Source of the DNA: a bacterium
Lineage (GTDB): Bacteria > UBA9089 > CG2-30-40-21 > SBAY01
Length of the DNA stretch: 15,873 nt
NCBI GenBank assembly: GCA_040757115.1
Contig: JBFLYA010000081.1
Coordinates: 1 to 15,873 of the forward strand
Direction of reading: 5' to 3'
Numbering within the stretch: the first letter of the stretch is position 1; each line of letters starts with the position of its first letter. Both the position numbers and the translations under genes were made by a program. This document shows, one piece after another, positions 1,628-15,727 of this stretch. The notes under the pieces were generated by a model, which saw only the letters and a list, made by a program, of their open reading frames with translations, was not told the DNA's origin and did not search any database.

Positions 1628-3349
1628 TCACATATTTTTGCTTTTACTTTCCTTTTTGATGTTCTGCAGACGCTGGATGGTTTTTTGAAGGTCATCAATA
1701 GATATATCCAGTTTATCAGCTAATTTTTCCTGGTTTTTTTCATACCTGGTAAGTTTTTCTTCAATAAACTTGAGGATTCTATTTTGCTTACTAAGTGCCA
1801 CTCTTAGATGCTCAGCTGATACCCCCCAACTTTCTGCCAATGCCTCAATATTTCCATGATGACCAGCCAGAGAGATAAATATGTGCTCCTTCTCTTGCTC
1901 AAAGTACTTATGCACTGTAGCATGGGAAATCTGTAGTCTTTTGCTTACCTGCTCCAAATTACCTCCTTTTTCTATATAGGTTTGGAGAAATTTAGAGCAT
2001 GGAGATTGTATTTTGGAGATTATAGGTTGAGGTGCTTTTGTAAGACTTGATTTATCAATGGGAGTTAATAGTAGCTTTTCAGAAGCAATAAAGTTCTTTA
2101 TCTCATCTATGGTTATTATATTATTACTCCGAAAATATACTGCCCGTTCAAGGATATGTTCCAGCTGTCTAACATTACCAGGATAATCAAACCCTTTCAG
2201 ATATTCTATAGCCTTATCTTCAAGAGATAACTCTTCTTTTTCCTCAATGCCAAATTTATGGATAAAGTGCCTTGCCAGATTTGGGATATCCTCAAGTCTT
2301 TCTCGAAGAGACGGGATATGAATTGGTATAACATTAAGTCTATAATACAAATCCTCTCTAAAAAAGCCTTCTTTTACTGCTTTTGCCAAATCCTTATTCG
2401 TAGCGGCAATTATCCTAACATCAATTGGAATTGGGTTAGGTGAGCCAAGGCGTTGAATTACCTTTTCCTGAATAGCTCTGAGTAACTTAGTTTGAATTTC
2501 TCCTGAAATCTCACCAATCTCATCTATAAATAGAGTAGTTCCATCTGCCTTTTCAAAATAGCCCACTTCATCCTTTATAGCACCAGTATATGCTCCTTTA
2601 TTATGTCCAAATAATGCTGATTCAATTAGATTTGATGAAAGGGCAGGGATAGATACTTCAATCATAAGGTTATTTTTACGAGGACTATTATAGTGAATAG
2701 CCGCCGCAATCATACCTTTTCCTGTTCCAGTTTCGCCTGTGAGTAATATTACTGGTTCGTATTTCTTCTGGCTAATTTTCTCAATAGTTTCATAGATATT
2801 ACGCATTGAAGAACTATTTCCTACTAAATTACCAAGATGATATTCGATTCCTTCAGCCTTTCTTAATTCATCAAAATTATATCGTTTCCTTTGGCGTTCT
2901 ACAGAATATTGAGTTTGACTTGAAAGTCGTAATTGAATCTTTTTATCCTTTACTTTCTCCAATGCGTTCCTGATAGCAGTCTGTAATCTTGTTGGGTCAT
3001 CACTCATTCTATCTTTAAGGATATAGTCGAATGCCCCTTTTTTCATCGCCTTAGTAGCATCATCTGCCCCTACTCCTACACCTGTAAGGACAATTACTTG
3101 AATCATAGAATCAAATTCTTTAATTTTCTCCAATAATCTAAATCCAATCTCTTCTGTGGCAAACCCTCCTTTTTCATGGGGTAACCGCAAGTCTAAAATA
3201 ACCACTTCTGGTTGTAACTTAAGGTTTTCAATTACTTCCTTTCCACTTGCCGCCTCATATACGGTATAATCTGATTTTAACTTTTTTACCACAAAGTGGC
3301 GAAAGGTTTCTTCATCTTCTACTACCAAAATGACATTACTTTTTGCCAT
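1628..3349 (-). CDS. Receiver-AAA+ sigma-54-dependent transcriptional activator (NtrC type)
   Basis: An NtrC-type response regulator, 573 aa from ATG 3349. A TTG at 3370 would add seven residues, but GAAGGGG lies just before the ATG, so the ATG is preferred. Residues 5-130 are a receiver: acidic VEDEE, phospho-acceptor Asp53, Lys in ILKD, and an 8-residue loop insertion after LRLP. Residues about 175-405 are a sigma-54 AAA+ domain: Walker A GETGTGKG at 205-212, GAYTGA at 252-257 (normally GAFTGA, the sigma-54 contact), Walker B LFIDE near 273, and arginine-finger region FREDLYYRLN. The C-terminus (about 450-565) does not look like one Fis helix-turn-helix but like two or three successive Fis-like units. 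This last gene of the operon presumably carries the transcriptional output; the sigma-54 promoter at 12270-12285 is an obvious candidate target. Confidence 0.95.
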   Translation of the reverse strand: MAKSNVILVVEDEETFRHFVVKKLKSDYTVYEAASGKEVIENLKLQPEVVILDLRLPHEKGGFATEEIGFRLLEKIKEFDSMIQVIVLTGVGVGADDATKAMKKGAFDYILKDRMSDDPTRLQTAIRNALEKVKDKKIQLRLSSQTQYSVERQRKRYNFDELRKAEGIEYHLGNLVGNSSSMRNIYETIEKISQKKYEPVILLTGETGTGKGMIAAAIHYNSPRKNNLMIEVSIPALSSNLIESALFGHNKGAYTGAIKDEVGYFEKADGTTLFIDEIGEISGEIQTKLLRAIQEKVIQRLGSPNPIPIDVRIIAATNKDLAKAVKEGFFREDLYYRLNVIPIHIPSLRERLEDIPNLARHFIHKFGIEEKEELSLEDKAIEYLKGFDYPGNVRQLEHILERAVYFRSNNIITIDEIKNFIASEKLLLTPIDKSSLTKAPQPIISKIQSPCSKFLQTYIEKGGNLEQVSKRLQISHATVHKYFEQEKEHIFISLAGHHGNIEALAESWGVSAEHLRVALSKQNRILKFIEEKLTRYEKNQEKLADKLDISIDDLQKTIQRLQNIKKESKSKNM

Positions 3350-3366
3350 TTTTTTATCCCCTTCTT

Positions 3367-3747
3367 TCAAGATTTTTTAAGGCATTTCTCAATAATATCA
3401 AGTACCTTTTCAAAAACTCCAAGAGTATCTTTCAGCAGACATTCAAAAGCACCTTTCCTCTTAGCATCTTCATAATCAAACTCCTTTGAACTCAAAATAA
3501 TTACCTGAATTTTAGGATTAGTTTTCTTGATTTTTTCTAATACCTCAAATCCCATATCAGTTTCCACCACTCCTCCTTGCTCTTCAGGAAATTCCATATC
3601 TAATATGACTACATCAGGATTAGTTTTAAGTTCTTCAATTGCCTCTTTTGCAGTCATAGCACTGCGTACTTCATATAACGGACTTATCTTTTCTTTCAAA
3701 AGATGACGGTACTCTTTTCTATCTTCCACAATAAGAATTTTAGCCAT
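3367..3747 (-). CDS. Stand-alone response-regulator receiver
   Basis: A 126-aa protein made of one receiver domain and nothing else. Acidic pair Glu8-Asp9, phospho-acceptor Asp50 in VILDME, the Ser/Thr switch position in ILSS near 86, and the conserved Lys at 106 (LLKD) are all present, so it should be phosphorylatable. Like its neighbours it carries an extra loop of about eight residues with a GG pair after the Asp-x-x-x-Pro segment. The start ATG is preceded by AAAGGAG. Its stop lies 17 nt before the ATG of the sigma-54 activator gene. Single-domain receivers usually act as phosphate shuttles or sinks or by protein binding (CheY, Spo0F). Between two kinase genes and several receiver-effectors, a shuttle or buffer is the natural guess, by inference from context. 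Confidence 0.93.
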   Translation of the reverse strand: MAKILIVEDRKEYRHLLKEKISPLYEVRSAMTAKEAIEELKTNPDVVILDMEFPEEQGGVVETDMGFEVLEKIKKTNPKIQVIILSSKEFDYEDAKRKGAFECLLKDTLGVFEKVLDIIEKCLKKS

Positions 3748-3770: not shown

Positions 3771-4763
3771 TTAAGGTTTATATGAAAATGCTATGATTTT
3801 ATCCTCGGGTAATTCCGTAGCATCAGAAAATTTATCCTTCCTTTTAATTATATCTCGTGTAGATTTAGAAATCAGTATCCCGTTTGTATCTGCGTTTTTT
3901 TGTAAATGTCCAGTGATATGGAGTACTTCTCCAAATGCCTTTTTTTCTTCCGAACTTAATATTACCTTCCCCGTATGAATCCCTATTCTAAAATTAAACT
4001 CCTCTTTTAATCTGTTCCTTTCCTTATTAAACCTACCTCTTCCCTCCAAAATACTAATTCCTGCATCTATTGCCTCATTTGGGTCTTCAAAATAACACAT
4101 TCCTTCGTCTCCAACTGAATTTAAAATCTCTCCCTTATGTTTAAGAACTGTCTCCTTAACATACTCATGATACTCATTTAACGAATAGATAATATTGATG
4201 TCTTTTCTTTCGTGATTTTTTTCTTCTCTCAGCATCTTTGTTGATTTAACCAGGTCAATGTCAAGGAATGTATATGTCTTAGTAAATTCTTTTCTAATGA
4301 TGTTATCTAATTCAAGTATCCTTTTGATTATTTCTATTAATGATAATGATTTTTCTGGTAAAATTTTTTGCCTTTTTAATAATGCCTTTTTTATCTCATC
4401 GATTAACTCTTGAGAATTTACCTCATCTTTTAAGAAATAGCTTACTGCTCCTTTATTAAAAGCCCGCCGAATAAACTTTCCATCATCCACTGTTCCACTA
4501 ATCATTATTATTTGAATATTAGGTTCAAATTCTAATACTATCTCTAATAAATCACCGCCAATTATCTCTGCCATACCCCCGATTCGCCATGGTAGCCCTA
4601 CATCCAGGATAATCACATCTGGCTTCAGGAGCATAATTCTTTTAAGCAATTCTATGCCTGTTCCCGCTTCAAATACTTCATAATTTGGTTTGAGCCACTT
4701 AACTATTCTTTTACGATAGTGATTATCATCATCAACCACTAAAATGATATTCTTTTCACCCAT
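3771..4763 (-). CDS. Receiver fused to a class III nucleotidyl-cyclase homology domain
   Basis: A 330-aa two-domain protein. Residues 5-130 are a receiver: DDD at 11-13, phospho-acceptor Asp54 in IILDVG, Lys112 in FLKD, and the extra GG-containing loop shared with neighbouring receivers. After a helical linker, residues about 160-328 match the class III adenylyl/guanylyl cyclase fold: FLDID (Asp168), SVGDEG (Asp219), GIHTGKV and LHITGHLQ. Both metal-binding Asp positions are kept. The position usually occupied by the adenine-recognising Lys is Asn215, and the usual transition-state Asn and Arg (VNxAxR) are His282 and His286. It may therefore be an inactive nucleotide-binding domain, or a cyclase with altered chemistry or base preference. 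ATG 4763 is preceded by AAGGATAG. Fold assignment is firm; enzymatic activity is doubtful. Confidence 0.9.
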   Translation of the reverse strand: MGEKNIILVVDDDNHYRKRIVKWLKPNYEVFEAGTGIELLKRIMLLKPDVIILDVGLPWRIGGMAEIIGGDLLEIVLEFEPNIQIIMISGTVDDGKFIRRAFNKGAVSYFLKDEVNSQELIDEIKKALLKRQKILPEKSLSLIEIIKRILELDNIIRKEFTKTYTFLDIDLVKSTKMLREEKNHERKDINIIYSLNEYHEYVKETVLKHKGEILNSVGDEGMCYFEDPNEAIDAGISILEGRGRFNKERNRLKEEFNFRIGIHTGKVILSSEEKKAFGEVLHITGHLQKNADTNGILISKSTRDIIKRKDKFSDATELPEDKIIAFSYKP

Positions 4764-4786: not shown

Positions 4787-5674
4787 CTAAATAAGATTTC
4801 TTTTCTTCATAAAAAATTCTCTATCTTGTTCTGATGTCCAACATTTCCCAATGTATTCTTTTAGTAATATTACCCGATTATCTGCTGATACAAATTCTTT
4901 TATTCTATAATCATCCATTAATACAATGCTAATTTTATTCTCCCTTATGAGAACATCTTTAATATCGCTGGTAAAACCACTTGGAGAAATGTAAAGTGCA
5001 ACATTACACGATTCAAATCTAATATTCTCACTAATCTTACGAATAAATGCCCTCATCATTTCTGAATCCACTTTTTCTGACAGATTCTTACATTCAACAG
5101 GAATATTATATCCTACTCTCTGCCAGAATCCAAACCCAATCTCATTATTAATAAGAATATCTATTTCTGCAGCCGGTGGTCTTACATTTTTCCTTGCCGA
5201 AAAGCCATCAATACCGTTGAAAATATACTCCATAAGACTTTCTAAAATAGCACCTTTTTTGTTATTGTTATCTATTTCATTTAAACTTAGGCAAAATTCT
5301 ATGAGTAACAAAATAAATTCTAACGGTGACTTTTCTTTTCTTAACTGGAAATAAGGACTAATTTTCCCGAGAGGTTCTTTATAAATCTCTGTTTCTGTCC
5401 CGGTATAAATAATTATTTCTACATTTGGTCTGGTTTGTTTAATCTTTTCAAAGTAGTGCTCATCTATAACTTTTTCTATTCCATTTTTAAATTCCTTAAG
5501 TTTAAGGTCGGTAATAAGCAATTTGATATTGTCGGATGTCAATTTATCTATTACTTCCTCCTCAGAAGTGACTAAGATAGGAGTATAATTTCTTTTGCTC
5601 AATTCATCTTCTAAAAACTTTAAAGATATTTCATCATTGCATGCTATCAGAATATTCGGTTTTTGATTGTTCAT
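4787..5674 (-). CDS. Receiver-like domain fused to a PD-(D/E)XK (Mrr-like) nuclease domain
   Basis: A 295-aa protein. Residues 6-130 resemble a receiver: Asp14-Glu15 after the first strand, Asp56 in LLITDL, Thr91 in IIYTGT, and Lys113/115. It is more diverged than its neighbours and carries the same extended loop after the Asp. Residues about 138-255 look like a restriction-endonuclease fold: a helix with Glu145, then AEIDIL (Asp172), a strand with IPVECKN (Glu194-x-Lys196), then an alpha-beta unit ending in VALYISPSG. This spaced D...ExK pattern is the catalytic signature of PD-(D/E)XK/Mrr-like enzymes. No specificity domain is visible. The start codon overlaps the preceding stop (ATGA), so translation is coupled to the hybrid kinase gene. 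The likely role is a phosphorylation-controlled nuclease; DNA or RNA target unknown. The nuclease call rests on motifs only. Confidence 0.85.
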   Translation of the reverse strand: MNNQKPNILIACNDEISLKFLEDELSKRNYTPILVTSEEEVIDKLTSDNIKLLITDLKLKEFKNGIEKVIDEHYFEKIKQTRPNVEIIIYTGTETEIYKEPLGKISPYFQLRKEKSPLEFILLLIEFCLSLNEIDNNNKKGAILESLMEYIFNGIDGFSARKNVRPPAAEIDILINNEIGFGFWQRVGYNIPVECKNLSEKVDSEMMRAFIRKISENIRFESCNVALYISPSGFTSDIKDVLIRENKISIVLMDDYRIKEFVSADNRVILLKEYIGKCWTSEQDREFFMKKRNLI

Positions 5675-7272
5675 GATAAATTATTTCCTGCCTTAATAGG
5701 TAATTCAATAGGTAATTCAACACTAATCTTAGAACCTTCTCCTATTTTAGTCCACTCCACAAATATATCCCCTTTGTGTTTCTTCATAATGGTTTTACAA
5801 GATGATAGTCCCAAACCCATCCCTGTTTCCTTTTTAGATGTGACAAATAAATCAAAAATTTTCTCCCTCTCATCCTCTCTAATTCCACAACCATTATCTT
5901 CAAAAGATATAAAAATCTTCCTCTTATCCTCAGCAATAGATACGGTTATTCTAAGTATTCCTTCTTGTATATTTTTTATCTTTATGGCATCAATAGCATT
6001 TGAAATTAAATTACTAAAGACCATACCTATTTTCCCCTTATCAATATTAATCTCAATATCTTCTTTTGTAGGAATATCAGGCAATTTCGGAGGCTTTATC
6101 TTATTTTCGCTCATTTTTCCCCAATATTGGGTTAAGGCTTCTTCAAGGAGTTCATTTATAGTATTTATCCTGCAAGGTAATAAATTAAGTTCCCTTCTTC
6201 CTTTAGTGTAATTTCTTAACTCATCAACTATCATTTTTAATCTTTCTTTAATTCTTGTAATCTCTTGTAAGTTCTTTGTTTTAATATACTCTTCAAGAGG
6301 CATTATCAGGGGACTAATTTCATGAACTATTCCTCCACTTAATTTACCTAATTCTGCCTCTGTTTCTAATCTTTTTACTTCTCTAACTGATTCAATATAT
6401 TGAACGAAAATGGCAAGATGAGTGGCAATCTTTTGGATAAAAGGGATATCTTCCCTTAAGACTTCATGCTCTTTGGTCGTATAGATATTTATAAATCCTA
6501 TAAGTTTATTTCCTACTTTCAGGGGGATTAAAAGAAGAGTTTGACTTTCCTTAATAAGTTTTAACTCTTTGGACAAGGGATATAAAGGGTCACCTATTTT
6601 AATATCTCTTATCATCTTTATTTTTCCATCCTGGAGCAGCTTTAAATCAGATGATTTTAATTCTATCGACTTTTCTATCACATCTTTCTCTTTTTTTTCA
6701 GATACTTTTAAGCAAGATTTGATTATTGCTTTACTATCTCTTATAAGGAGAAGAACTCCTCCATCACATTTAAATAAGTGTTCCAACTTATTTATTAGAT
6801 GTAATACTTCTTCCAATCCTAACTCTTCTGTAACAAACTTCTCTGTAATAAGAAATAGATTTTCTAATTCTATAATCTTACGGTCTAATTCTGCCTTCAT
6901 CGCATGGTATTGAAATGCCTTTTCTATAACAACCCGAAGAGCCTCATTACTAAAAGGTTTTGTAATGTAATTAAAAGCTCCATCCTTCATTGCCTTAACT
7001 GCTGTGGAGATATTATTTACAGCCGTTAACATTATCACTTCCATCTCTGGTGCAAATTTCTTTATCTCAGATAAAACCCTCATCCCTTCATCAGATGTAT
7101 CCATAATTATATCCAGAAGTATCACTTGTGGTCCTTTATCTTTAGCTAATCTTATACCTTCTTCTCCATTAGGAGCTAATAATACCATATATCCTTCTTC
7201 TTCTAATGTTCTTTTCAACATATAGCGATGATTTTCATCATCTTCAATAACTAATAACTTTTTCTCCTTCAT
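5671..7272 (-). CDS. Receiver-GAF-histidine kinase hybrid, soluble
   Basis: 533 aa from ATG 7272, which has AAAGGAG about ten bases upstream. A GTG at 7281 would lie one base from that Shine-Dalgarno and is less likely. Residues about 5-120 are a receiver with IEDDE, Asp54 (LLDI) and Lys105 in TKPF. Its loop is near normal, unlike the other receivers here. Residues about 130-290 are a GAF-like sensor, with strands VLLLI and LLLIPLKV. The kinase core follows: H-box IVHEISP with His317, N-box with Asn425, G1 DNGCGI at 459-464, and G2 GMGLGL at 484-489. No membrane segment is visible. Receiver-first hybrids usually take phosphate from another kinase or gate their own kinase domain. The preceding gene, 15 bases upstream, encodes a full kinase, so a two-kinase relay is plausible. 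Confidence 0.95.
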   Translation of the reverse strand: MKEKKLLVIEDDENHRYMLKRTLEEEGYMVLLAPNGEEGIRLAKDKGPQVILLDIIMDTSDEGMRVLSEIKKFAPEMEVIMLTAVNNISTAVKAMKDGAFNYITKPFSNEALRVVIEKAFQYHAMKAELDRKIIELENLFLITEKFVTEELGLEEVLHLINKLEHLFKCDGGVLLLIRDSKAIIKSCLKVSEKKEKDVIEKSIELKSSDLKLLQDGKIKMIRDIKIGDPLYPLSKELKLIKESQTLLLIPLKVGNKLIGFINIYTTKEHEVLREDIPFIQKIATHLAIFVQYIESVREVKRLETEAELGKLSGGIVHEISPLIMPLEEYIKTKNLQEITRIKERLKMIVDELRNYTKGRRELNLLPCRINTINELLEEALTQYWGKMSENKIKPPKLPDIPTKEDIEINIDKGKIGMVFSNLISNAIDAIKIKNIQEGILRITVSIAEDKRKIFISFEDNGCGIREDEREKIFDLFVTSKKETGMGLGLSSCKTIMKKHKGDIFVEWTKIGEGSKISVELPIELPIKAGNNLS

Positions 7273-7287
7273 CTTTTTCACTCTCCT

Positions 7288-10134
7288 TTAAACTGGTAAT
7301 TTGATGGTAAATGTTGTCCCTTCACCTTCCTTACTATCTACTTTAATGTTTCCTTTATGCTCTTTAATAATCCCACGACATATCCATAACCCTAATCCCT
7401 TACCTTTATGGCTCCCTCTGGTAAAGAATGGGTTGAAGATTTGATTAATATCTTTCTCGGGAATTCCCCCACCCGTATCTGATATTTCCACCTTTACAAA
7501 ATCATCTGTTGGAGGAAAAGTTTTTACCTCTAAACTACCTCCCTTTGACATAGACTGAATAGCATTTTTGATGATATTTATAAACACCTGCCCCAATTGT
7601 AATTGGTCAGCATTGACAGGAGGTAAATCTGGAGCTAAAACTATACTCGGAGTAATTGAATATTGGTGTAACTCTTGTTTTAACTGTCCTAATGCATCAT
7701 TTATGATGGTATTAATATCAATTGGTCTAAGATGAGGTGCTGATATTTTTGCCTCTTGTAAGCCATCAATCACCATTTGTGCTTGGTCAGTAGCCAGTTG
7801 TATCCTTCTTAAATCTTCATTTTGTGGCTCTTTTTTAAGCAATAATCCACTTAGTCCTTTAATAGTGCTTAATGGATTGCTAATCTCATGTGCCGCCCTA
7901 TCAGCTAATTCACCAATTGAGATTAATCTTTCAGATTCTAATCGTTCCATCTCTCTCTTTAATCTTTCCTCATATATCTTATTATATTTCTGGTTTACCT
8001 TTTCAACCATCTCTTCCTCATTAACTACCATACCAATTTGCTCTCCAACAATTGATAAGAATTCCATATCATCATTGTCAAAAGAGTTGGGTATAACACT
8101 TTGGACTGCTAATACCCCAACGGTATTCCCCTCAAATTCTGAAGGCACTGCTAATTCCTCTCCATTTCCATTTATTTTAGAAATTTTGTGTGATTTTCTC
8201 TCCCTCCCAACTATTCCAATGACTCCATCTCCTAATTTATATTCACTTGCCTGTGACCAATTTATATCAGATTTTATCTTTAATCTTCCGTCTTTGAGTT
8301 CAAAAAAGGCACATTCAGCCACATTAATTCCTTCAAATACCTTTTTTACAATTTGGGACAAAATGGTTGAAAATTCCTTATCAGAAGATATTATTTTTGA
8401 GATTTCATTTAATATATGTAGTTGTTCACAGATAGTCTTATGTTTAATCATAAGGGTTATTTGCTCGGTTAAAAAAGAGATGAAATTTCTATCTGTTTCA
8501 CTTATTGGAGAGTTTGAGTTATAGACAGCTAATATACCAAGAGATTTATTTTCATTTACTAAAGGAATTGCCAATACTGAACCTTTCTCTCCAAACTGAA
8601 GTTTAAGAAAAGAATCTGTTTTTGCATCTTCTTCTATATCAGGATTAAAATAGTCCTGCCCTTCTAATATAACCTCAACAAGATGTGGTTTTCTTTCTAT
8701 TTTCTGTGTAAGATCAATCCAAAATTTATCTTTAGAGATTTGATTTTCAGAGTCAACTATCTGGTCACATTTAAGTTTTCCTTCCTTTCTATCTATCAAA
8801 TATAAATAACTCCTTTCAAAATTGAAGTATTTTACAATTGCCTCTAATATATTCTTCAATATTGTATCAAGAGGAAGTTTATTTAACATTGAGATAGTAA
8901 CGTTAGTGATTAGACCTACCTGCATTTGAGAAATTCTTGCCACATTCTTTAACTCATCTTGCTTCATATTGTCATAATAATCCTTAAAATCTATGGATGC
9001 CTTTCCATATTCTTTTTTTCTAATGTAAATTCGAGCAAAGTACTCTTTAGTGAAATGTCTCTTTAAAATATCCTTATAAAGAGGAGTTCTTATTTTAATC
9101 TTATTACCATCTCTGATAATTATTCCCGATAACTCAAGTTTTCTAAAACTTGCATCCCATTGACCAACAATATAGATATCTTCTTTGTCATAGAGCAAAG
9201 TTTCTAATATCTTCAATAATTCTAAGTCTTTCTCCAAATCCCGTTCAATTTTTAAAGTTAGGAAAGTAAAAGTTTCATCTTCATCCATTCCTATTTGCTC
9301 AACAGATTCTTTAAATTCTTCCATGGTTATATGTTCTATTCCTTGTTTTAGCTTTCGTTGGGCTGTATCAAATAAGATATAACATATTTTTTGAACTAAG
9401 TAAGGGTGCCCTTTTGTTATCTCATAAAGTCTATTAACACAATCTGGAGTTATCTTAATTCCAAATATCTCAAGTTGTTGAATAAACACTAATACTTCTT
9501 CCTTTCGAAAATCCCGTAGGATTATTGGTTTGGCTATATTAAAAGGAGAAGTTTTATCATCTTGTCCTATTGTTAGCTCAAATAAATCTACTGTTCCTGA
9601 AATTAAAATATTAATCTTTGAATAACTTGGATTTATAGTAGATTCATTATATATTGTCCTTAAAACCAATAGCAATTCTCTGGCTATTTCTTTAGGTAAA
9701 ATCTCTATCCCATCAAGTAAAAATAATATCTTAGAATCTATCTTTGATGCAATATTTTCAAGGAAATATCTAAAGAGACTTGCATTTCTTATGATTGTTC
9801 CTCCAGTCATCCCACCCAGTCCTTTTTTTCGGACATGAAAAATAATATACTGGGCTAAATGTTGGTAGAAGGTTTCTAAGTTATAATCTTTAATCTTTTC
9901 AAAATTAATATAAATGGAATAATAATGAAGGTGGTTGTCTTTATTAATTTCGCCCATCAGTTGGTAAATAAATGTTGTCTTACCTGTATGATTAGGGGCT
10001 AATAGACTAAAGTAATTTCCCCTTTTTAGACCAATTATTACATCATCTATTTCTGCCTTTCTAATAATGGACACTGCCTTATCTTTCTCCTGGTCAAGCG
10101 CTCTATCATAGACAAATGGATTTATCTTTTCCAT
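7288..10134 (-). CDS. AAA ATPase-GAF-GAF-histidine kinase, cytosolic sensor
   Basis: A 948-aa sensor kinase. Residues 1-260 are an AAA_35/STAND-like NTPase: Walker A APNHTGKTT at 46-54, Walker B ILFLLDGIE at 136-144, then an ISGT strand and a helical lid (KGHPYLVQKI). Residues about 290-370 look like a winged-helix segment closing that module. Two GAF-type domains follow at about 405-565 and 575-705, then a charged coiled coil (705-738). The kinase core has H-box AAHEISNP with His749, N-box with Asn857, G1 DTGGG at 886-890, F-box NPFF, and G2 GKGLGL at 911-916. No transmembrane helices are seen, so signals must be intracellular. ATG 10134 lies two bases after the upstream stop, with AAAGGAGGGG before it, so co-translation with the RapZ-STAND protein is expected. 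The fused ATPase may act as an oligomerising sensor. Confidence 0.95.
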   Translation of the reverse strand: MEKINPFVYDRALDQEKDKAVSIIRKAEIDDVIIGLKRGNYFSLLAPNHTGKTTFIYQLMGEINKDNHLHYYSIYINFEKIKDYNLETFYQHLAQYIIFHVRKKGLGGMTGGTIIRNASLFRYFLENIASKIDSKILFLLDGIEILPKEIARELLLVLRTIYNESTINPSYSKINILISGTVDLFELTIGQDDKTSPFNIAKPIILRDFRKEEVLVFIQQLEIFGIKITPDCVNRLYEITKGHPYLVQKICYILFDTAQRKLKQGIEHITMEEFKESVEQIGMDEDETFTFLTLKIERDLEKDLELLKILETLLYDKEDIYIVGQWDASFRKLELSGIIIRDGNKIKIRTPLYKDILKRHFTKEYFARIYIRKKEYGKASIDFKDYYDNMKQDELKNVARISQMQVGLITNVTISMLNKLPLDTILKNILEAIVKYFNFERSYLYLIDRKEGKLKCDQIVDSENQISKDKFWIDLTQKIERKPHLVEVILEGQDYFNPDIEEDAKTDSFLKLQFGEKGSVLAIPLVNENKSLGILAVYNSNSPISETDRNFISFLTEQITLMIKHKTICEQLHILNEISKIISSDKEFSTILSQIVKKVFEGINVAECAFFELKDGRLKIKSDINWSQASEYKLGDGVIGIVGRERKSHKISKINGNGEELAVPSEFEGNTVGVLAVQSVIPNSFDNDDMEFLSIVGEQIGMVVNEEEMVEKVNQKYNKIYEERLKREMERLESERLISIGELADRAAHEISNPLSTIKGLSGLLLKKEPQNEDLRRIQLATDQAQMVIDGLQEAKISAPHLRPIDINTIINDALGQLKQELHQYSITPSIVLAPDLPPVNADQLQLGQVFINIIKNAIQSMSKGGSLEVKTFPPTDDFVKVEISDTGGGIPEKDINQIFNPFFTRGSHKGKGLGLWICRGIIKEHKGNIKVDSKEGEGTTFTIKLPV

Positions 10135-10136
10135 GA

Positions 10137-12200
10137 TTATATTATCCCCTCCTTTAGACTTTCTTTTAATATATATTTTCTCTCTATATTATTTTTTATT
10201 ATTGTTGGAAGTCTATCGAATAAAAAGGAATATTCTTTTCCATTCTTATCCAATACTCCTAATAGAATGAGATTATCCATATCTTTATCCACCTCATCAA
10301 TTTTAATAACTATTCCTTCGTTCTTCAGGGTATGGTGAATTGTCTCAAAAGAAATAGGTGGTTTCATATTGATAATATTAAAAATGATACTCCGCTTCAG
10401 GTTATCTTTATCAAAGGTTGGCAAAAATATGTTAAGGAGATCCCTCTCAAAATTAGAATCCATATAAATTCTATTAATTAAACTATCCGAGACAATCCTA
10501 TTATTACTCTTTGACAAACTTTCAATCAATTTCTCACAAAAAGCCTGGATACAACTTGGATGAAGTGATACTAAATTAAGAATTTTATCGATATTTTTTA
10601 TAGGGTCTATAAAGCTTACGCCAAGGTTTCCCATTGGTTCTCGAATTAAATTCTCTCCACCTGGTTTGTCTAAGACAGAAAGATGAATAGATTTAGTAAA
10701 GTGATAAAGAGGTGAATCTATATCTTTAGTTTGAAAATATAGCACCTTAAATCCAGCCATAATACATCTACAATAACCGTTAAATGCTAAATCCCTGAGG
10801 GCTGAGATGAGTAAATATCCATTCTTTTTATCTATATCAATAAGATTGTCAATCTCATCCAGCAAAAAGATAACCCTTTCATTTTTAACACTGAAATACC
10901 TAAAAAATGATAACATATCCTTTATTTCCTCCGTTGGGATTTCTAACCGGTGACATACTAATGAGAAGAAGTCTTCATAATCTCTACAAATACTGCAGTC
11001 AATAAAGATAACCTTACTATCTCCATTCTTTTCCATCTCTTTCTTTACTTTTAATAGTAAGGATGTTTTACCCATCCTTCGTCCTCCAACAATGGTATAA
11101 TTTACACCTTTATTCTCCATAAGTTCTTTGATTTCTTTTTGTCTGCCATAGAAATTTTTTGTAGGACCAAGTGAACAATATGGAGATACCTGACGCAAAC
11201 CTATCTGCTCAACTATACATTTGATAAAGGCTTTCTTAGAATCATAGGCAGAAAATACCTTTTTTAAATCCTCCTTATTTAGTACCACAAGTTGATAAGC
11301 AGAATTTTTTACCCATTGCTTAAGTTTTGTAGAATCTTTATCGGCTATGATAAAAGATATATCATTTTGAACCTTTTCTCTTCTGATAATATTTTCTATA
11401 TTCGAAATAATATCCTTATTTATTTCTGGCACTACCATAAATAGAGAATCCTCCTTCTTCATTTTAATTCTCATCCTTTCTATGTCAATCTTAAAATAGA
11501 TTATTTGTTGTGCAGAAACTTGTTTTTTAATCTCAAATCCTACAAATTTCGCCAAATTACCTAATAAGTTAGATAATCTCTCACCATCTCCAGTTTCAAT
11601 TGATTCTAAACTATCAAGAATTGGAGATATAATCCTTCGCCGCTCGTCACTCAATAGTACCTCAGGAAGAATATTATCCTTTCCTATACCTGAAATAGTC
11701 ATTTTTGCTTCTTTTCTGTTGTCAACCACACATTTTTCTAAAATCAACCTAATGTCTTGTAAAGTAAATTCCGAGGTATCTATGACTAAATTCGCCTCTT
11801 TTCTTAATCCTTCTAAATATCTCCGTTCAATTTTAATATTCTCTAATAGTCCTCTCCGTCTTCCCCATGGATGTGGTCTTCCTGTCTTTTCATATCGATG
11901 TTTAATTACCTCATCAGAAGCATCTAAGAATATAAGTTTATAATCAATACCTATTTCAGATAGTTTCTTTAGATTAGAAAATACTCCATTTGAAAGTCCT
12001 ACTTCTCCTGTATCAAGTACAAGACAATAGGATTTTCTCTTACTTTTACCGTTAATACAAGTTCTTACAAATTCTGGTAGTAGAGAGGGAGGTAAATTCA
12101 CTACATGATGATATTCCATATCCTTAAAACATTTTGCCGCTTCGCCTTTACCTGCACCAGAAATACCGGCAATAATAACAAATTTAATCATTTTAGCCAT
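10137..12200 (-). CDS. RapZ-type P-loop domain fused to a STAND/Orc-like ATPase
   Basis: First gene of the operon, 687 aa from ATG 12200. GGGGTGA lies eight bases upstream of that ATG, which makes it a better start than the GTG at 12212. Residues about 4-160 match the N-terminal nucleotide-binding domain of RapZ/YvcJ: Walker A GISGAGKG at 12-19, then VVNLPPSLLPEF, FLDASDE, and VIDTSEFTL near 139. The RapZ C-terminal RNA-binding domain is absent. Residues about 165-340 are an alpha/beta stretch I do not recognise. From about 343 a second ATPase begins: SPYCSLGP...YGRQKEI, Walker A GGRRMGKTS at 372-380, Walker B VIFLLDEID at 443-451, and a C-terminal region (600-675) resembling a winged helix. 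Two NTPase modules in one chain suggest a ligand-sensing or scaffold component. It could signal to the AAA kinase encoded next to it; that link is inferred. Confidence 0.9.
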   Translation of the reverse strand: MAKMIKFVIIAGISGAGKGEAAKCFKDMEYHHVVNLPPSLLPEFVRTCINGKSKRKSYCLVLDTGEVGLSNGVFSNLKKLSEIGIDYKLIFLDASDEVIKHRYEKTGRPHPWGRRRGLLENIKIERRYLEGLRKEANLVIDTSEFTLQDIRLILEKCVVDNRKEAKMTISGIGKDNILPEVLLSDERRRIISPILDSLESIETGDGERLSNLLGNLAKFVGFEIKKQVSAQQIIYFKIDIERMRIKMKKEDSLFMVVPEINKDIISNIENIIRREKVQNDISFIIADKDSTKLKQWVKNSAYQLVVLNKEDLKKVFSAYDSKKAFIKCIVEQIGLRQVSPYCSLGPTKNFYGRQKEIKELMENKGVNYTIVGGRRMGKTSLLLKVKKEMEKNGDSKVIFIDCSICRDYEDFFSLVCHRLEIPTEEIKDMLSFFRYFSVKNERVIFLLDEIDNLIDIDKKNGYLLISALRDLAFNGYCRCIMAGFKVLYFQTKDIDSPLYHFTKSIHLSVLDKPGGENLIREPMGNLGVSFIDPIKNIDKILNLVSLHPSCIQAFCEKLIESLSKSNNRIVSDSLINRIYMDSNFERDLLNIFLPTFDKDNLKRSIIFNIINMKPPISFETIHHTLKNEGIVIKIDEVDKDMDNLILLGVLDKNGKEYSFLFDRLPTIIKNNIERKYILKESLKEGII

Positions 12201-12269
12201 TTCATTTGTCACCCCCCTATCATCTTATTTAATATTTCTTAATAAATTTCCCTTTTGTCTTAAAAGAGT

Positions 12270-12285
12270 AGCAAATTTTATGCCA
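12270..12285 (-). promoter_or_regulatory. Putative sigma-54 (-24/-12) promoter of the signalling operon
   Basis: The minus strand reads TGGCATAAAATTTGCT. This matches TGGCAC-N5-TTGCW, with GG and GC exactly 12 bp apart and deviations only at the two bases after TGGCA. The predicted start near 12259 gives a leader of about 58 nt before ATG 12200. It is the only site of this kind I noticed in the window, and it lies directly upstream of an operon whose last gene encodes a sigma-54 activator. Confidence 0.7.
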
Positions 12286-12537: not shown

Positions 12538-14039
12538 CTATCTATTCTCTTTGGGGTGAAGCAGGGCAAGAATTTCTTTTATCGTCTGTCCGTGGGCCTC
12601 CGCAGATTCAAGAATGTTTACGATACGGTTTCTCTCTGCCTCTTTAACTAAATTTCCATATTGCCTCGTGGTAAATAAACCAAGTCCCCCTTTTGGTGTA
12701 TATACAACTATACTTAACCCTCCTAATCCAGTCGCCCATTTTCCTGAAAGTCTATACCTCTGATCCTGCCAGGCATCAGGATGTCTCATCTTCATAATAT
12801 GTTCCGAGTTGTAAAGCATTAACGCAAAAGTAATCCGTGCATTTATCGTATTAAATTTACGACCTGCAAGCCTCTCAATTTTCCATCGCTGGTTAAGTTC
12901 CCTAAACCCCTGATTCTCAATTATCCATCTTGAACGATAATAATTCCTTATTTTAAAAGGGTTCTTTATCGTAGGTAAAGAAGTGATATACTGAACTGGA
13001 CGACGGATACTGCTATCCTCATTATGAAGAGAATTCCCTTTTATGTCCCTCTCATCCGAAACAACTGCATTAGTTAACCCTATTTGATTGCCCTTTTCAT
13101 CATAAAGAGGGATACCTTCAATCCCTGTTGATCTAACCTTTATCTCGCCAAATTGGCTGTGTTCCTCCCTCCTCCATATCCACTTAACATCCCCTCCTTC
13201 TATACACATCTCTATATATTTAACTACCTCAAGCCTTTCATCTCTGGCTCTGGTTACATAATCTATTCCAAAATCCCTCTTTAATCCTGTCAAATATTCA
13301 GCCCCCCACTATCCTCTATCCATGGCTAACACATCCATCCACTCTCTCAATGGTGCAATCTCCTGGTTAAGACGCAAAAGCATCTCACGAAGCATTACCT
13401 TCTCACTGGTCTGAAGCGGTACCAGAGAAAAACCAACTATCCGTTCACGATTAGCCGTTATATTCAACAACAACACCAATTTGTATCCCCTCTTACTTCC
13501 TACTTGCCCAATGTTCTCATACTTCTTCCCATAGGGAATAATTATCTCCATAGCATCTGCAAGGTATACCTTACCACGAATCCAACGTCGTTCCCTCAAT
13601 AGACGAACATGCTTTGTAAAATTATGCAAAACATTTGAAACTCCAATCCTTGCAAGATGATTAGACAGTATCTCAGGATCAATAACCAATTTACCTCTCT
13701 TTTTTGCCAACTCTACATCCTCTACATTAAAAATCCAGCAACTAACATCAATCGTGCATCGGATAATACCTTCCCACACTGACTGATTGCTTCTATATCT
13801 GCTAATTCGCGAAGGATTTCTATACTATTAAGAACTCGGGGAGATTTGCCATTTTCCTTCTTCAACTCTGTAGGCTGCATACTTACCATCGTTTCCCATA
13901 ACCCACTCCTCACCAAAAATTCTATCCAAAAATCATTCTCCCCATAACCTGATAAAACCGCCTCATACTCCTCCTTTTCCACTATTGCTTTCTCACAAAC
14001 AGAATTGTTGTGAAACCAAACCTTATACCCTTTATCCAT
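12538..14039 (-). pseudogene. IS4-superfamily-like DDE transposase, broken by a frameshift and a TAG
   Basis: Three consecutive minus-strand segments together read as one transposase of about 500 residues. Segment 1 (14039 to about 13730) is the N-terminal part and starts with ATG overlapping the end of the accessory ORF. At the T-run at 13729-13733 the frame shifts by -1. Segment 2 then continues to 13309 and carries the first catalytic Asp (LADAMEI) and the second (LAMDRG). There an in-frame TAG (13309-13311) interrupts the likely DRG-Y-WG motif. The same frame then continues to 12538 with the IS4-type Y-x2-R-x3-E signature (YRSRWIIENQ) carrying the catalytic Glu. The three acidic residues are therefore all present, but not on one polypeptide. 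Programmed frameshifting or TAG read-through cannot be excluded, but two lesions favour decay. Confidence 0.85.
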
Positions 14040-14412
14040 CTTTTTCCTCCTCCCTAAAGGGTTCTTTAGATTGTGCCTTTCCTAATTCCCTGAACAATTC
14101 CCTAACTTCATTACTTATCTTCCACCACTTTGTAAGATATCTATTGAATTCGCACCACTGGGAAGTTTCCTTCTTCATCCGTAGCAATTCTTGTTTTTTG
14201 ACATATTTCAATTTGGTTTTCCCAGATATCTTGCCTGATAAATAATAAGCAGAAGAACTTCTCTTCTTTGCTGATGTTCCAAGTCTACGTTTAATCAAAC
14301 ATACCATTATCATCTCTCTGTGTCTTAAAAGAGCTTTTTCCATATCTTGTTTCTCTTCAAGTTTTCTGGAAATTTTCTGTCTTATTTGATTTGCCATTTG
14401 CCTATCTTTCAT
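14032..14412 (-). CDS. Small basic IS accessory protein (DUF6788-like)
   Basis: A 126-aa protein rich in Lys and Arg. An N-terminal coiled-coil-like helix is followed by a YYLSGKISGKTKLKYVKKQ segment and a C-terminal helix. This layout resembles the small DUF6788-type proteins often encoded beside transposases, though the usual Cys cluster is missing. ATG 14412 directly abuts the 10-bp palindrome, so an mRNA from the predicted promoter would be leaderless. ATG 14397 has GATAGG upstream and is a good alternative start. Its stop overlaps the transposase start, indicating translational coupling. A DNA-binding or regulatory role for transposition is inferred from charge and position only. Confidence 0.7.
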   Translation of the reverse strand: MKDRQMANQIRQKISRKLEEKQDMEKALLRHREMIMVCLIKRRLGTSAKKRSSSAYYLSGKISGKTKLKYVKKQELLRMKKETSQWCEFNRYLTKWWKISNEVRELFRELGKAQSKEPFREEEKDG

Positions 14413-14671: not shown

Positions 14672-15727
14672 TGAATCTTTGGTTATAGGATTATTAAATT
14701 CATCCTGTCGCTCGAGTCTAAATACCTCTGAGACAGTCCCCGCAACCGCAAATTGAGGTGCCAAAAGAAGGACTAAATGCTTTTCAGACGGGGTTAAAAT
14801 ACAGCCGTGTAGAGATATGGTTGTTTGCGTGTCGGAAGTAGCTAAATACGACTGGCTATTGTAAGTTCCAGGGGATTGTCCCACCGGATAATCTAACCAT
14901 AGGTATAGGGTTTGTGTTGCCCCTTGTTCTGAAGTAGCGGGATAAGTGCCCATAGTTTGATAAGTAGGCGTGACGGTATTCTGAAGACTACTCGTATTGG
15001 TTAAGGCATAACCTAACGGGCCAGGCAAGGATATAGTGCCACCATTTTCACCAATAAAATCCTCTGCCTTAATCTGTAAGATATAGTTGCTGTTAGAAAT
15101 AATATTGAGATTAATAGGAGAAGTAAGCGGATTATCATTTGTATCGGCAAAAGAAGAGGTAAAAAAGGCATCCTGGCTATCAATGTTTATCTCGCTGTAA
15201 TAGGCGTTACTAATATTTATTTCACCTGATACATCCTGGGATTGGTTTGTATAACATACGACCACTTTAATCTTCCAATCAGAATTTTGTTGATACCTTG
15301 CTATTTTGCCTGGAGTAAAAACTAATTTCAAAGTTCCTGTCCCGGTAGTAGAAGTAGCAATTTTACAATTATCTTTATCAATAGTCCAGGTAGAACTTAA
15401 TGGACCAACTAATTTCCAGCCGTCATTTTTACTCCATTGATAAGTAGCGTGGTCGATTGAGGTATCTGTTCCTTTTTCTGAATTTGTTGTTCCATCCCAG
15501 ATATAGAAATTAACTCCATAGATAACATCAAATTCATCAAAGACCTGGACCAAAAGTGTCATTTCATCATTTGGAGTCATTTGTGAAGTAGAAGTAGTAG
15601 TTTGGCCGTTATCATCTTCAAAAAGTGTTACTGTTCCTACTTGCGGAATATAAGCCTCGCTGAGATTATAAGTCAGGATTAAAAATCCTATTAAAATAAT
15701 CTGGAGTTTCGTGAATTTATTCATCAT
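14657..15727 (-). CDS. Truncated copy of the large secreted/surface protein
   Basis: A 356-aa protein. Its first residues (MMNKFTKLQ) differ from the left paralogue. From IILIGFLIL to PITKDS (about residues 10-352) it matches codons 4-346 of the gene at 1-1362 with few changes. Residues 1-25 form a Sec signal peptide ending in SEA. The frame then diverges and stops after four foreign codons, whereas the left copy continues for over 100 further residues. The 3' part has therefore probably been lost or replaced at the junction at 14671. The stable N-terminal part could still be exported, but it may be a pseudogene. There is no strong Shine-Dalgarno; the ATG overlaps a 6-bp inverted repeat (15726-15738). 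Confidence 0.75.
   Translation of the reverse strand: MMNKFTKLQIILIGFLILTYNLSEAYIPQVGTVTLFEDDNGQTTTSTSQMTPNDEMTLLVQVFDEFDVIYGVNFYIWDGTTNSEKGTDTSIDHATYQWSKNDGWKLVGPLSSTWTIDKDNCKIATSTTGTGTLKLVFTPGKIARYQQNSDWKIKVVVCYTNQSQDVSGEINISNAYYSEINIDSQDAFFTSSFADTNDNPLTSPINLNIISNSNYILQIKAEDFIGENGGTISLPGPLGYALTNTSSLQNTVTPTYQTMGTYPATSEQGATQTLYLWLDYPVGQSPGTYNSQSYLATSDTQTTISLHGCILTPSEKHLVLLLAPQFAVAGTVSEVFRLERQDEFNNPITKDSTAVI
14672..15700 (-). repeat. Long direct repeat, right copy
   Basis: It matches 325-1353 in the same orientation, with no gaps and about 18 differences by eye. The two copies are offset by 14347 bp, so homologous recombination between them would delete the whole signalling operon and the IS. 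Confidence 0.93.

Follow-up and report, generated by a model that had tools for sequence, protein, structure and literature searches.

A degenerate receiver domain joined to an Mrr-type nuclease in a seven-gene signalling operon with a consensus sigma-54 site

Detocs consists of a kinase (DtcA), a lone receiver (DtcB) and a receiver-effector protein (DtcC), and a phospho-relay triggered by phage reportedly reaches the effector. Nuclease effectors are said to be present in some of the DtcC variants. The response regulator PorX also has a receiver and a hydrolase output, which has the PglZ fold and not that of the PD-(D/E)XK nucleases. Effectors from the PD-(D/E)XK superfamily are found in proteins gated by other signals, and one of these, bNACHT25, degrades DNA upon phage sensing (PMC12169576). 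Receivers that have lost the residues for phosphorylation are now defined as pseudo-receivers, and how those of bacteria are switched is an acknowledged open question (PMC12632262).

The locus examined here is in a stretch of 15,873 bp (the window; positions 1 to 15,873 of contig JBFLYA010000081.1, GenBank assembly GCA_040757115.1), to which all coordinates refer. Seven genes are found on one strand, the minus strand, and are separated by 2-23 bp or overlap by 4 bp. The first (10137..12212) encodes a RapZ-like N-terminal domain and an AAA/STAND-type ATPase, and the second (7288..10134) an AAA_35 ATPase-GAF-GAF-histidine kinase. They are followed by a REC-GAF-histidine kinase with a canonical receiver quintet and the H-box VHEIS (5671..7281), the REC-nuclease gene (4787..5674), which is the fourth of the seven, a REC-adenylate/guanylate cyclase with a canonical receiver (3771..4763), a stand-alone receiver with the canonical quintet (3367..3747) and a REC-sigma54 activator that includes AAA+ and HTH domains (1628..3370; the ATG at 3349 may be a better start). 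Through the REC-cyclase, the operon of the REC-nuclease also has an arm for second-messenger signalling. The cyclase portion gives a weak match to the model of the Pycsar cyclase PycC (18.8 bits, E 2.1e-4). Elsewhere, homologues of the ATPase part of the first gene product carry beta-propellers in place of the RapZ-like domain, which has therefore apparently taken the place of a sensor module.

A perfect match to the sigma-54 promoter consensus, TGGCATAAAATTTGC, is located at 12271..12285 on the minus strand, about 58 bp before the first gene. RpoN is encoded in the genome, and there are 10 consensus sites in the 4.3 Mb (both strands) versus 2 for the reversed control. Four other sites were checked, and two of these precede genes, one being ahead of a run of receivers, while two are inside ORFs. 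As a sigma-54-like site in contig C26 of the same genome falls within a gene, not every consensus match is a promoter. Contig C3 of the same genome (L139:8019-10973) has a run of receivers, distinct from that of the operon, near a consensus sigma-54 site. Because the site at 12271..12285 precedes an operon that encodes a REC-sigma54 activator, we infer that this activator would autoregulate positively.

Just upstream of the promoter, a broken DDE_Tnp_1-type transposase is spread over several frames (12538-14412). The signalling cluster is flanked by two direct copies of a 1,029 bp segment, 98% identical, at 325-1353 and 14672-15700, which are part of a gene for a secreted-type protein. These copies could mediate gain or loss of the cluster, or could mark an assembly repeat. 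Large STAND-type ATPases, one of which has a cyclase domain, are densely clustered in contig C26 of the same genome (locus L077).

The REC-nuclease gene is a single intact ORF that spans exactly 4787-5674 on the minus strand, and its start shares 4 bp (ATGA) with the stop of the REC-HK gene upstream. The only Pfam domains in its 295 aa product are Response_reg and Mrr_cat; a NACHT module is absent, and none of the PADLOC models matches the protein. The nuclease domain (aa 137-265; 4880..5266) is defined by profile, alignment and fold. When compared to 24,736 Pfam models, aa 144-260 match Mrr_cat (PF04471) with 24.1 bits (cut-off 21) and E 4e-5. Distant homologues, with 25-38% identity, were found in Alphaproteobacteria, Bacteroidota and haloarchaea, and the relatives found independently, from Kozakia, Sphingomonas, Gluconacetobacter, Arthrospiribacter and haloarchaea, keep E145, D172, E194 and K196. 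In the nine-sequence alignment the invariant columns are G141, E145, D172, E194, K196, N197 and G233.

The AlphaFold model is confident across most of the nuclease, and the stretches of low confidence in the full-length model are aa 58-70, 94-114 and 275-295. The core order is alpha-beta-beta-beta-alpha-beta, and the catalytic residues are on the expected elements, namely helix 137-153, the start of strand 173-177 and strand 190-195. The closest solved structures are the small subunit of R.BspD6I (2p14; Z 11.2, 147 residues, rmsd 3.2), 1y88 (Z 11.2) and FokI (Z about 10, 149 residues), and the next are the CRISPR effector nucleases Card1 and Can2 (Z about 9, 128-151 residues). The preliminary description, which was made from the sequence alone, had proposed a receiver and a PD-(D/E)XK nuclease in one protein, and this is borne out by Pfam, by the relatives and by the predicted folds. 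It had also correctly picked Glu145, Asp172 and Glu194-x-Lys196 as the nuclease residues (codons at 5240-5242, 5159-5161, 5093-5095 and 5087-5089, respectively), all of which are kept in 9 of the 9 aligned sequences. As three independent lines (profile, distant homologues and predicted fold) lead to the same assignment, a receiver-nuclease fusion with a complete PD-(D/E)XK active site, encoded beside histidine kinases, is well supported. Judged by these residues, the Mrr-type nuclease is catalytically complete; it is probably a DNase.

A second occurrence of this domain pair was sought. Searched with the whole protein, 98 genomes gave only receivers or distant nucleases, as did up to 386 genomes searched with the nuclease, and the nuclease alone had no match among viral contigs, phages and plasmids (the last at a strict E). 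No REC-Mrr_cat fusion was found in the sister species, in other searched members of the phylum or elsewhere in the genomes searched. Another nuclease-like frame of the genome, in contig C93, is without a receiver. Among the Mrr-type frames of the genomes searched, about 110, none was found to carry a receiver by an HMM that picked up 13 frames in the control loci. This fits the earlier remark that nuclease outputs are rare, though PADLOC does hold a model that combines REC and Shedu. However, the absence of the fusion elsewhere is weak evidence, because the genome-wide scan rested on two short peptide patterns.

The nuclease class is found with other partners. Mrr-type domains form the N-terminal part of NACHT proteins from the phylum, the sister species included, and this is where bacterial NLR-like defence proteins have their effector. 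In other proteins the fusion partner is a nucleoside-deoxyribosyltransferase-like domain or an unrelated N-terminal region. With NACHT, nucleoside-deoxyribosyltransferase-like and unrelated N-terminal modules all represented, the nuclease behaves as a portable effector. Candidates for NLR-like proteins in the sister species and the phylum have the arrangements Mrr-type nuclease-NACHT-WD40 and Mrr_cat-NACHT-FGE-sulfatase (L084:439-3567, L087:215-2686 and L088:729-3053). On a Kozakia plasmid (L042), the gene for a relative of the nuclease is followed by genes for a SIR2 protein and an ATP-binding protein, and two toxin-antitoxin pairs lie before it.

The signalling cluster is absent from the sister genome (G001) and from two further relatives (G002 and G003), and hence is not a core function. 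In G002 and G003, relatives of the AAA-GAF protein were found without the kinase core and without the cluster. In G016, a propeller-STAND ATPase directly precedes a homologue of the AAA-GAF-HK protein, and in G283 the kinase is missing from a related pair. As such pairs are present in both G016 and G283, the ATPase-ATPase sensor pair probably predates the receiver cluster.

The receiver-fold domain occupies aa 4-131 (5282..5665). The Response_reg match (PF00072; aa 8-99) has an E of 2e-5 and, at 25.1 bits, is under the cut-off of 30.2. A model of aa 1-135, made together with the operon's other receivers, shows all the elements of the (beta-alpha)5 fold in order and matches response regulators, KdpE among them, with VIA Z values as high as 18.1 (120 residues). 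A beta3-alpha3 insertion is common to this receiver and its operon neighbours. Kept are D56 (codon 5507-5509), T91, a small Gly at T+1 and an aromatic residue, F109, at K-3 (Y-T coupling). The position of the conserved Lys is occupied by Arg112, directly after beta-5, and the Pro at D+4 is replaced by Lys60. The positions of the acidic pair correspond to C12/N13 in the Pfam alignment, in each of two HMMs (the first made from the operon's remaining four receivers without the query, the second from 15 generic receivers) and by the start offsets of the structure alignments. These offsets were read against the DD positions of DivK, Spo0F, ArcA and KdpE. MAFFT placed N13/D14 at the acidic positions instead, and this register was set aside in favour of C12/N13 on the basis of the HMM and structure registers; C12/N13 is favoured and N13/D14 less likely.

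In both registers at least one acid is missing from the metal-binding pair, and neither supports the Asp14-Glu15 pair of the preliminary description, which was misregistered. Its Lys113/115 also did not stand, the residue being Arg112, while its D56 and T91 did. The canonical quintet (two acids, Asp, Thr/Ser and Lys) is therefore incomplete in the nuclease-fused receiver, and loss of the acidic pair and Lys fits the published definition of a pseudo-receiver (PMC12632262). By that definition, and going by its residues, the domain is a pseudo-receiver under either register. In the other four receivers of the operon all five active-site residues are intact, and the acidic pair and Lys are lost only in the one fused to the nuclease.

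Because one gene of the operon joins a degenerate receiver to a nuclease with all of its catalytic residues, a two-component-type system probably commands the nuclease directly, perhaps not via phosphorylation of the receiver fused to it. The reading we prefer, tentatively and while remaining almost evenly divided about it, is that the effector of the operon is a complete Mrr-type nuclease, probably one that cuts DNA, fused to a pseudo-receiver that gates it through contact with a partner and not through phosphorylation of D56. The two ATPases and the GAF domains would act as sensors that feed the two histidine kinases, and phospho-transfer would reach the canonical receivers of the operon. 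Acting at the operon's own sigma-54 promoter, the REC-sigma54 activator would then increase the transcription of all seven genes. The nuclease would most likely be docked by its pseudo-receiver, either on a kinase or on a sister receiver that carries a phosphate; it would be freed or dimerized by that contact and not through D56 phosphorylation, and the outcome would be growth arrest or defence. The absence of the cluster from G001, G002 and G003 and the lack of a PADLOC match for the REC-nuclease protein count against this reading. The sequence itself shows the domains, the nuclease residues, the gene order and the promoter match, while an active nuclease, its gating, DNA as its substrate and a suicide or defence role are inferred. 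A defence or DNA-damage output, as previously suggested, is plausible by analogy, since the same nuclease class is found on NACHT proteins in the sister species and bNACHT25 degrades DNA. In the fullest version, which we put forward with considerable doubt, the operon would be a two-component defence or suicide system that amplifies itself, its ATPase sensors and histidine kinases acting on the DNase via protein contact of the pseudo-receiver, with a cyclase arm and sigma-54 feedback.

The main rival is the original proposal that phosphorylation switches on cleavage, with a kinase of the operon phosphorylating D56. The retention of D56, T91 and the Gly at T+1 is in its favour, as are the two histidine kinases of the operon, one translationally coupled, and the persistence of D56, T91 and F109, which is compatible with some phospho-sensing, counts against the contact model. 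However, the Mg-binding acidic positions are C12/N13 (or N13/D14), the Lys is an Arg, the Pro at D+4 is lost and the receiver fits the pseudo-receiver definition (PMC12632262). As the acidic pair and Lys are lost in this receiver alone of the operon, the proposal is weakened and a phospho-switch at D56 is doubtful; a binding partner, either kinase or receiver, fits better.

An unlikely alternative is that the domain binds DNA, or serves as a repair nuclease or one resembling type IV restriction enzymes, with an activity ungated by signalling and a receiver that only localizes or dimerizes it. The structural neighbours of the model do include restriction and repair nucleases (1y88, EndoMS and FokI), and relatives without a receiver exist, one a stand-alone protein of 178 aa. 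Fusion to a receiver and co-transcription with six signalling genes from a sigma-54 promoter would, however, be odd for a constitutive enzyme. The degenerate receiver with the beta3-alpha3 insertion of its neighbours and the lack of an orthologue in the genomes searched (a point also against the contact model) might suggest that the fusion is inactive and decaying, left behind when receivers were duplicated within the operon. This is very improbable given the intact frame, the full set of nuclease active-site residues and the translationally coupled start.

If gating of the nuclease by contact is correct, two-component signalling would reach a DNase directly, with no transcription step, via a receiver that lacks the phospho-chemistry. 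The switching of a pseudo-receiver would also be easy to assay with a nuclease as the read-out and with four canonical paralogues and two kinases encoded alongside.

Among known systems, the Mrr_cat (PF04471) restriction endonucleases are similar in the E...D...ExK core and predicted PD-(D/E)XK fold, with a score above the curated cut-off. They differ in context, as the others met were stand-alone, on NACHT proteins or on other N-terminal modules, with no receiver among the approximately 110 frames. The profile of Shedu SduA (DUF4263; PADLOC PDLC00405) has a receiver-like N-terminus, and its positions 1-134 are matched by the four canonical receivers of the operon, so the pairing of REC with PD-(D/E)XK seems to be catalogued already. 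In contrast, the REC-nuclease protein is not matched by SduA, and its nuclease belongs to Mrr_cat rather than to DUF4263. A search for SduA in 242 genomes gave no match even in the controls and so carries no information.

Detocs is similar in outline, as its operon too combines kinases with a lone receiver and with receivers fused to effectors. It differs from the present locus, which has seven genes, a sigma-54 activator, a cyclase, AAA/RapZ ATPases and a pseudo-receiver on the effector. In PADLOC 2023, which may lack Detocs models, no match carried the Detocs name. Can2 and Card1, CRISPR ancillary nucleases, likewise have a sensor domain followed by a PD-(D/E)XK nuclease of similar fold, but the sensor here is Response_reg by sequence and fold, not CARF, and CRISPR genes were not noticed in the window. 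With PorX, which has been solved with pGpG, the resemblance is in the combination of receiver and hydrolase, and the match is limited to the PorX receiver. bNACHT25 and bNACHT32 are signal-gated effectors from the same nuclease superfamily, and Mrr_cat-NACHT proteins are present in the phylum, whereas the REC-nuclease polypeptide is without NACHT or a sensor. A receiver with a nuclease output is thus rare and has precedents, and what is new here is Mrr_cat as the partner, a receiver that has lost its phospho-chemistry and an operon of seven genes with a sigma-54 site.
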